A stretch of 64,000 bases of DNA from positions 1 to 64,000 of IMG/VR virus record IMGVR_UViG_3300033233_000004, one strand, 5' to 3'. The position numbers and the translations under genes were made by a program. Shown here in pieces: positions 18,999 through 21,323 of this stretch (its first letter is position 1; each line of letters starts with the position of its first letter). The stretch is from a virus. The notes under the pieces were generated by a model that made no database searches, was not told the DNA's origin, and was given only the letters and a program-made list of their open reading frames with translations.

Positions 18999-19034
18999 AA
19001 AAACAATAAAAATGGGGCAGTATTAGTGCCCCAT
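18999..19034 (-). terminator. Rho-independent terminator closing the repeat-array transcript
   Basis: An 8-bp stem, ATGGGGCA / TGCCCCAT (19012-19019 and 19027-19034), with a 7-base loop. In the minus-strand transcript it is followed by TTTTTATTGTTTTT. It lies just after the 3' repeat tract, so the transcript of 19378-19977 should carry that tract in its 3' untranslated region. Confidence 0.85.
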
Positions 19035-19150
19035 GCAGGAATCAGGGAATATAAAGAAATGATACCTTTTGAACTAAATTTCAACCGTAACAAACCCGAA
19101 CGTACCGTGCCTTGACTAACCTCGCAGCATCATACAAAACCTAATTTTTG

Positions 19151-19183
19151 AACTATGAAACACTTTTAGAGCATTTCATAGTT
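19151..19183 (-). ncRNA. Shared-loop hairpin H1
   Basis: Perfect 10-bp stem AACTATGAAA / TTTCATAGTT around a 13-base loop reading TGCTCTAAAAGTG in the transcript. It is followed by an A-rich stretch, not U, so it is not a terminator. Same loop as H2 and H3 on a different stem. Confidence 0.75.
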
Positions 19184-19256
19184 ATATAAACCGAACTCTA
19201 CCCCAACGCACCATACCCCAACTTACCATACCGAGTCCTACCTAACCTTATTTTCG

Positions 19257-19289
19257 AACCATGTAACACCTTTAGAGCATCACATGGTT
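19257..19289 (-). ncRNA. Shared-loop hairpin H2
   Basis: Transcript arms AACCATGTGA and TTACATGGTT pair at 10 positions, one of them G.U; the complementary strand would have an A.C mismatch there. Loop TGCTCTAAAGGTG. Confidence 0.75.
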
Positions 19290-19377
19290 AATGTAACCAA
19301 ACTCCACCATAACCCAACTTACCACAACGCACCTAAACATAACATACCAAGCCGCGCCTTACCTTATGAAAAGAGTC

Positions 19378-19977
19378 TTACACGCTCTTCACGGATACAA
19401 CACTGAATCGTCCATGCTCAGGTCGCCAGTCACCGAGACCAACCACTCTACCAGCTACATCAACGAAACGCTTCACAGCCGCTTCCTCAATGAGGTCAGG
19501 CATAAATGTCACATTGAATGCCAAAGCCCATTCAGCAAACTCAGGACGAGTACGCATAACACTCGACCCCATGTTGACCTTGACTGCCGTGTAGCTCTTA
19601 TTGTTACCCTCGGAATACAGTTTCTTGATGTCCTTGGCACCAGTGTATTCAAGAACCGCATCTGCCTCGACAATGATGCTGGACTTGGCGGTCGTGGCTT
19701 CCTTGGATTTCTTTGCCGCATTCACAAGGGTCGCCTTGAGAACGTAATCTGGAATTACAACTTGTTTCTTGTCATTCAGATACAAACTGGCGAACCATTC
19801 GAGACGACCCATCTCAAGATAGTCCTCGTCCGTCTTGTTCTTCTTTTTAGAAATGGCTTTCATCGCCTTTGATACTTCGGAAAGTGGGTCTTTCAACGCC
19901 ACACCATTGTGAAGAATTAGGCTACTATCGCCCTTGATTTTGAACTGCAATGTTTGTACACCTTTGGCGTTTGCCAT
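19378..19977 (-). CDS. RAMP-like uncharacterised protein embedded in RNA repeat arrays
   Basis: Start chosen at the ATG at 19977 (MANAKGVQTL) with AAAGGAAT upstream; the frame extends to 20067 but that part encodes repeat-array sequence. 199 residues. Features: LQFKIKGDSSLILHNGVAL at the start, VVIPDYVLKATLVNAAKK in the middle, VMRTRPEFAEWALAFNVTF, and a C-terminal VVGLGDWRPEHGRF. The two ferredoxin-like halves and the terminal glycine-rich GLG-R-GRF loop recall RAMP (Cas5/6/7-type) RNA-binding proteins. I know of similar phage and metagenome proteins without a known function. It is flanked by two GGTNN and hairpin tracts, suggesting RNA binding or autoregulation. Fold and role are inference. 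Confidence 0.8.
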   Translation of the reverse strand: MANAKGVQTLQFKIKGDSSLILHNGVALKDPLSEVSKAMKAISKKKNKTDEDYLEMGRLEWFASLYLNDKKQVVIPDYVLKATLVNAAKKSKEATTAKSSIIVEADAVLEYTGAKDIKKLYSEGNNKSYTAVKVNMGSSVMRTRPEFAEWALAFNVTFMPDLIEEAAVKRFVDVAGRVVGLGDWRPEHGRFSVVSVKSV

Positions 19978-20144
19978 TGTGATTATTCCTTTGCTTTGTT
20001 CGTGAATCATTGTATCGTTACTGCATGTCGAACGACTTGACCTTTGAAAATAAAAAAGAAACCACACCTTACCGAGCCGAAAAACTACCGCAACTCACCC
20101 TACCGTAACGGGACAAACCGTACCACGCCATATTTTACATCTTG

Positions 20145-20177
20145 AACCTTGAAGCACCTTTAGAGCACTTCAAGATT
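20145..20177 (-). ncRNA. Shared-loop hairpin H3
   Basis: Transcript arms AATCTTGAAG and CTTCAAGGTT pair at 10 positions, one U.G wobble (A.C on the other strand). Loop TGCTCTAAAGGTG, identical to H2. Confidence 0.75.
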
Positions 20178-20265
20178 GAATTTCAACCATACCTTAACGG
20201 AACAAACCGCATCTCACCACAAACATAACGCACCGAGCCGCACCGTGCCTCGCCATATTTTTTTG

Positions 20266-20298
20266 AACTCCGACCAGCCTTTAGAACTAATCGGAATT
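20266..20298 (-). ncRNA. Shared-loop hairpin H4 (variant)
   Basis: Transcript outer arms AATTCCGA and TCGGAGTT with one U.G wobble. The stem extends through TTAG/CTGG, leaving a loop TTCTAAAGG that keeps the core shared with H1-H3. Confidence 0.7.
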
Positions 20299-20369
20299 GA
20301 GAAACTTACCGTACCACGACTTAACTTACCGAGCCTAACCCTGACTCACCATATCCGAACCGAACCAAA

Positions 20370-21323
20370 TTACACTCTTTGTGCTTTCTTTTTTCCAACC
20401 ACACTTACCAACGCAGACCCACGCTTCTTTGAACGCAGTGTACGCTTCTGACTCTTCACAGGCGTAGTCTCCACCTTCGTCCGTTCAATAGGACGAAATG
20501 TAAAGCCCTGCCGTGCAAGCATTGGTCGAGCGTACTTCTCGGCAACTTTCCTCAGTTCTTCTGCCTTGCGTTGCTTCATGTCGTCTTCACTCATACCAGT
20601 GTACCCTTGCATCGCTTCCTCGACTTCTCTCGGAATAGAATAGAGAAGTGGTTTGTGTGTAATACCAGTATTGTCCACGGTAATAAGAAGTGCACCAATG
20701 GATACCGTGTTTCCATACCCCATGAACTCGGTAGGATATTCCCAACAACCGTTGTGGATGATACGCACGGCACCATCGAACTTCTCTTCATACCGATGAA
20801 GATGTGCACCAACCAACATAGCTACTGGTTGCATCTCACTGTGACGTGTACGTTGAAACACAATGCGTTGTTCTGTCATAGTATTTCGAGATTTATGCGT
20901 GAAGACTATATCCCCATATGGAGTACCTATTGTTTGTATAACTTTATGATGCTTACCGCCCAATTTTTCAGTTACCTGTCGGTCTGCATCAAAACCCGAC
21001 CCCTTACCATAGTGGTAACCACTACCTGTTACACCGAGAACACGAATCTTTCCACCATAGAGCAATGGCTGAATCAGTCTAACAGCATCAGATACCTGTT
21101 CATCTACGTCAGTCAACCAAAGAGTAGACGAATCTTTGTGAGCATTACCATCGACCATATCTCCAAGTAAGACGATAGTATCAATAATAGGTAATACTAA
21201 TCGAACCATATATTCCCATTGATCTATAGCCCACGTCTGGAATGCATTCATACTTTTATTAGCACGTGAAGCAAGACCGTACTGAGAACCATCATGTATA
21301 TCATTAAGGACGAGAATATTCAT
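20370..21323 (-). CDS. Calcineurin-like metallophosphoesterase
   Basis: 317 residues with the order of metal-binding motifs of this superfamily: NDIHDGS near the start, LLGDMVDG (about 52-59), GSGYH where GNH is usual, FTHK, and GAHLHRYEE. The C-terminal 80 residues are Lys/Arg-rich and probably bind nucleic acid (SQKRTLRSKKRGS). The GNH-to-GSGYH change affects the usual proton-donor block, although His is retained, so substrate may differ from typical enzymes. A sigma-70-type promoter lies just upstream at 21348-21376. One of three members of this superfamily in the window. Confidence 0.88.
   Translation of the reverse strand: MNILVLNDIHDGSQYGLASRANKSMNAFQTWAIDQWEYMVRLVLPIIDTIVLLGDMVDGNAHKDSSTLWLTDVDEQVSDAVRLIQPLLYGGKIRVLGVTGSGYHYGKGSGFDADRQVTEKLGGKHHKVIQTIGTPYGDIVFTHKSRNTMTEQRIVFQRTRHSEMQPVAMLVGAHLHRYEEKFDGAVRIIHNGCWEYPTEFMGYGNTVSIGALLITVDNTGITHKPLLYSIPREVEEAMQGYTGMSEDDMKQRKAEELRKVAEKYARPMLARQGFTFRPIERTKVETTPVKSQKRTLRSKKRGSALVSVVGKKKAQRV

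Follow-up and report, generated by a model that had tools for sequence, protein, structure and literature searches.

VIPR, which a 2026 preprint was the first to describe, is a system by which phages target other phages; it involves a RAMP protein (Vipr) that binds vrRNAs made of GGY/NN repeats (PMC13142463). The published vrRNAs hold 9–16 YNNGG units, in which the constant GGY triplets form the protein-bound scaffold and the hypervariable NN spacers the guide, with the NN letters reading double-stranded DNA with a one-base skip (PMC13142463). For the Vipr of Escherichia phage SUSP1, disturbing this NN base pairing abolishes silencing (PMC13142463). VIPR systems reside mainly in viral or proviral genomes, where an accessory vap gene beside vipr is typical, though not universal (PMC13142463). 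The backbone of Class 1 CRISPR complexes (Cas7/Csm3), which is alike in its RAMP fold and glycine-rich loop, polymerises along its guide RNA, where it breaks the base pairing at regular intervals.

The locus described here lies in the first 64,000 nucleotides (referred to as the window) of the IMG/VR virus record IMGVR_UViG_3300033233_000004. Unit parsing revealed 79 five-base units in six minus-strand blocks (12–14 units per block; array span 19082–20365) that occupy the non-coding tracts on either side of a single gene (Table 1). A sequence-only reading of this stretch had indeed reported six pentanucleotide blocks around one gene, and parsing, autocorrelation and phase scoring all indicate that these blocks are real. 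Specifically, the minus-strand autocorrelation that it had proposed as a check gave a lag-5 peak well outside the dinucleotide shuffles (z = 4.7 and 4.0) and additional peaks at 10, 15 and 20, and the top 60-nt GGY phase scores of 0.85 and 0.89 exceeded the maxima of 0.73 and 0.70 among 300 shuffles. Phase scoring of both strands of the whole 171.8-kb record yielded no comparable tract elsewhere, the window had no Rfam match, and the tract did not resemble phages at the DNA level.

Each unit reads as G-(G/T)-Y plus two bases that are close to random, with 0.19 and 0.02 bits of information at positions 4 and 5 (n = 79 units). Position 1 was G in 74/79 units, position 2 was G in 51/79 (65%) or T in 24/79, and position 3 was a pyrimidine in all 79, so that GGY (47) and GTY (23) triplets left 9 off-motif units, which were densest in block 6. 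Most units are kept in phase, as had been claimed; because of one-base slips in blocks 2 and 3, however, that claim is nearly rather than fully right, and block 1 allows two registers at its start (the alternative being GGTTC GGTTC, one base upstream).

The sequence-only reading had made no mention of four 33-nt hairpins between the blocks, two per tract, each with a 14-bp stem and a CUAAA pentaloop. On the transcript strand 56/56 stem pairs could form (including 15 G-U pairs), versus 41/56 on the opposite strand. Swapping arms between hairpin copies left only 8–13 of 14 pairs, and 7 of the 14 stem pairs were altered on both sides. This strand-specific pairing, together with the compensatory changes, indicates that the hairpins act as RNA. 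A structured 3′ tail thus follows four of the six blocks; blocks 3 and 6, with which the two tracts end, have none. The 13-base top of the hairpin, TGCTCTAAARGTG, was found in none of the relative loci searched. The position of a terminator-like hairpin with a T run downstream of block 6 is suggestive only (2 such hairpins found versus 2.0 expected by chance).

Table 1. Features of the locus, listed in the sense of the minus strand (/ marks a one-base slip).
Feature	Position	Strand	Description and basis	Guide dinucleotides
Phosphoesterase gene	20370..21323	-	calcineurin-like; upstream neighbour of vipr; Pfam Metallophos E=0.0016, below cut-off	
vrRNA guide block 1	20301..20365	-	13 units; unit parse, phase score	CG CG AT GA AG TA TC AA AA GT AC AA TC
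Hairpin tail 1	20266..20298	-	14 bp, loop CUAAA; pairing analysis	
vrRNA guide block 2	20184..20254	-	14 units, slip after unit 7; unit parse	GA AC GC TC GC AT TG / GA GC TT CC AA AT TG
Hairpin tail 2	20145..20177	-	pairing analysis	
vrRNA guide block 3	20059..20129	-	14 units, slip after unit 10, no hairpin after; unit parse	GT AC TT CC AC AG GA GC AG TT / TC AA GT TT
vipr gene	19378..19977	-	199 aa, RAMP (Cas7/Csm3-like), phrog_4652; PHROG, phmmer, AlphaFold/Foldseek	
vrRNA guide block 4	19294..19363	-	14 units; unit parse	AA GC TT AT AT TA GC GT AA GG AT GG TT TA
Hairpin tail 4	19257..19289	-	pairing analysis	
vrRNA guide block 5	19188..19247	-	12 units; unit parse	TA AG TC AT AA GG AT GC GG AG TC TT
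Hairpin tail 5	19151..19183	-	pairing analysis	
vrRNA guide block 6	19082..19141	-	12 units, no hairpin, then remnant-like TAGTTCAAAA; unit parse, sequence	TT AT GC GA TA AA AC AC CG TT AC TG
Terminator-like hairpin	19012..19034	-	T run; downstream of block 6	

The protein encoded between the tracts matched phrog_4652 (E=1.5e-43), a family whose function is given as unknown in PHROGs. A single-sequence phmmer search matched residues 9–194 to SUSP1 Vipr (PDB 36pp, 36pp_D; E=5.3e-20), and a profile raised this match to E=1.2e-84. The best Foldseek matches of its AlphaFold model (pLDDT 91.8) were Csm3 subunits of type III CRISPR complexes (E=4e-7, probability 1.00). By homology and predicted fold, the product is a Cas7/Csm3-like RAMP homologue of SUSP1 Vipr. 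The glycine-rich motif GLGDWRPxxGRF is conserved in it, and its mass of 22 kD fits the small (~20 kD) RAMP with a G-loop that is a feature of VIPR. Matches to pentatricopeptide proteins in the sequence search were set aside as artefacts of repeated weak hits. The expectation of a multimeric RNA-binding partner beside the tracts agrees with this protein, a RAMP homologue that would be a multimer and whose RNA binding is putative by homology.

Relatives of the phrog_4652 type, below 60% identity, occurred in 135 of the phage records searched, many of them coliphages. In IMG/VR, a query with the single protein gave no match, and 80 loci were collected with an alignment query. Gene-sense GGYNN arrays lay beside the gene in 72/80 of these loci and antisense arrays in 1/80; the flanks read in LESphi2 (Pseudomonas), wV8 (Escherichia, Felix-type) and Trine (Gordonia) likewise held arrays (GGTNN or GGCNN) that alternate with structured elements, the annotated repeat DR_4 of wV8 sitting within such an inter-array element. 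The same kind of tract thus accompanies homologues in related phages, where the sequence-only reading had advised looking for it, rather than the protein standing among unrelated flanks. Since arrays are common to the protein family across unrelated phages, the view that the tracts are transcript-sense RNA under selection also holds.

Some of these relatives deserve separate description. At L084:4620-5450, the arrays of a Vipr locus are GTYNN, with T at the second base in 95% of units and G in none; they enclose a tRNA-Cys gene, on a contig with cyanobacterial HIP1-like GCGATCGC motifs. In Trine (L010:3570-3860), the repeated elements between GGCNN arrays resemble the T-arm and acceptor stem of a tRNA, and ARAGORN made one tRNA-??? 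call; they may be sites of processing by RNase P/Z. Gene 40 of Trine has an annotated start that takes it across an array and is probably placed too far upstream. In loci L020–L030, except L022 and L024, 6–10 close-packed and apparently overlapping GGYNN arrays (~60 bases) lie downstream of vipr, an arrangement similar to what the preprint calls 'staggered arrays' (PMC13142463).

Because the protein matches SUSP1 Vipr, its model is Csm3-like and its gene is flanked by GGYNN arrays, we identify the locus as a VIPR system and regard this membership as secure. As in the VIPR loci of SUSP1 (type II) and its wV8/Felixounavirus relatives, a homologous RAMP protein is accompanied on both sides of its gene by GGY/NN pentanucleotide arrays with structured 3′ tails, although the wV8 protein and the present one are only about 28–30% identical. 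The unit number falls within the published 9–16 and NN is near random. In contrast to the SUSP1/Felix-type loci, however, the second triplet base is G or T instead of G, the tail is a short hairpin and not of the Felix type, the final block on either side of the gene is tailless and no vap1-like gene is adjacent. The locus also differs from Class 1 CRISPR in its RNA period (five bases versus six), in the interleaving of variable letters with a constant scaffold, and in lacking CRISPR repeats and cas genes: a tandem-repeat search found no array of near-identical repeats with unique spacers at the locus, and no protein neighbouring vipr matched cas.

The layout of the arrays, the hairpins in the RNA, the homology and fold of the protein and the co-occurrence of gene and arrays in different phages were all observed, and taken as a whole we consider it very likely that this phage-borne locus produces, from its minus strand, six Vipr-coated vrRNAs for NN-guided repression of a target. 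Transcription would turn each of the six blocks into a vrRNA, with a hairpin at the end of four of them, presumably after processing into separate guides. Copies of Vipr might then align along each RNA, perhaps one to each unit of five bases, holding the G-(G/U)-Y triplets and leaving the NN pairs on display. By analogy with published VIPR, from which RNA binding, skip rule and repression are carried over (PMC13142463), the 12–14 NN pairs would base-pair to double-stranded DNA in the pattern NNxNNx..., passing over one target base per unit, and target binding would block transcription of the target. The target gene would most likely belong to a competing phage, a satellite or a prophage.

For the target searches, the guides were decoded into dinucleotides (Table 1). 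Exact patterns of 9–10 dinucleotides were scanned against IMG/VR for guides 1, 3, 4, 5 and 6 and against GTDB for guides 4 and 5, guide 2 being left out because of its slip. Neither a self-target at skip 0–2, nor an IMG/VR match for guides 3, 4, 5 and 6, nor a GTDB match for guide 4 was found, and all-against-all decoding of guides among the fetched loci at skip 0–2 gave no excess over shuffled guides and so no confirmation of the skip rule. Guide 1 matched one IMG/VR sequence (contigs L100/L101; 11/13 dinucleotides) outside any long open frame, which was rejected because about one chance match is expected per scan by our estimate. Guide 5 gave six GTDB matches, all in frame and all within the same conserved motif (SIKGIAGSS), which related proteins share, the best (23/24 letters) being in an Oscillatoriales bin, L107. 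With ~0.5 chance matches expected, six matches representing one gene family and the target present in only one of 291 genomes drawn from that bin's class, these are probably a coincidence. The L107 protein (L107:598-1836), in which the SIKGIAGSS codons are the guide 5 match, belongs to DUF2130 and has a YESK motif that recalls PD-(D/E)XK nucleases; a nuclease of the host would make sense as a target, though this match is probably coincidental. Across self, IMG/VR, GTDB and the fetched loci, no convincing target was therefore found, the two weak candidates standing at about chance level.

An HMM of the type-II kind of vap matched 25/80 relative loci and nothing in the whole 171.8-kb genome; such a vap is absent from the nearest relatives too. 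The calcineurin-like phosphoesterase upstream of vipr is only a lead as a candidate vap gene: a homologue follows vipr directly in L078/L080, which counts as one independent co-occurrence. Searches with it of IMG/VR and of phages gave no match, leaving no close relative for an empty-site comparison. The record itself (171,836 bases, with terminase and DNA polymerase) carries an 81-base end repeat and therefore looks complete. By named records, its terminase is nearest to those of Microcystis phages and other distant phages at 21–26% identity, a distance that does not settle the host. The phage also encodes a GroEL (window:21995-23626), closest among phage records to that of Bacteroides phages DAC (52% identity), and a 21-base tandem repeat of 8.6 copies, GCAGCATAAGCAGCAGCATAA, lies at window:2874-3054.

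Several points count against the VIPR explanation: the one-base slips of two blocks find no explanation in the published code, the genome holds no vap of the type-II kind, hairpins are missing from blocks 3 and 6, the target searches gave no convincing target, and the mechanism rests on one preprint and on a relative ~30% identical (PMC13142463). We give only a small chance to an undescribed VIPR variant in which Vipr accepts G(G/U)Y, the slips may fit a target that is bulged or shifted, and the phosphoesterase is a new nuclease-type vap. A similarly unlikely reading is that the system has decayed, some or all guides being dead; the loose G(G/T)Y motif, the 9/79 off-motif units (densest in block 6), the slips, the missing tails and the lack of a convincing target would fit it. 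However, Y kept in 79/79 units and hairpins perfectly paired via compensatory changes point to selection, and the same G/T mixture at the second base occurs in relatives L032–L040 and L057.

TRAP, the trp RNA-binding attenuation protein, is an 11-mer ring reading (G/U)AG. Its triplets with two-base spacers resemble those seen here, and the sequence-only reading had proposed a TRAP-type ring or an RNA sponge, whereby such a regulator would use the triplets as a multivalent site in a sponge or regulatory leader. The NN positions, uninformative within the arrays as filler would be, are compatible with this, but the partner is an unrelated protein, a RAMP homologue of SUSP1 Vipr, and the triplets are G(G/T)Y. 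Moreover, SUSP1 Vipr is a guide-RNA protein that needs NN pairing for silencing, so that the information of the published system lies in the very spacers that had been taken as filler (PMC13142463); ring and sponge thus find no support, and we hold them to be very improbable. Finally, a role as DNA (an origin of replication, a packaging site or a site coated by protein, where the hairpins would be cruciforms) would suit strand-asymmetric non-coding repeats in a phage genome, but is extremely improbable given that the 15 G-U pairs become A-C mismatches on the other strand, the hairpins pairing fully only as minus-strand RNA, and that in unrelated phages, too, arrays adjoin this gene and run in its sense.

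As a VIPR system, the locus adds a complete new example with six guides, in an undescribed phage far from any cultured one, to a newly described RNA-guided system that is possibly pre-CRISPR. It also explains phrog_4652, a PHROGs family without assigned function, as Vipr. The looser scaffold motif and simple hairpin tail widen what Vipr proteins may accept, and the locus offers a compact test of tail and triplet recognition.
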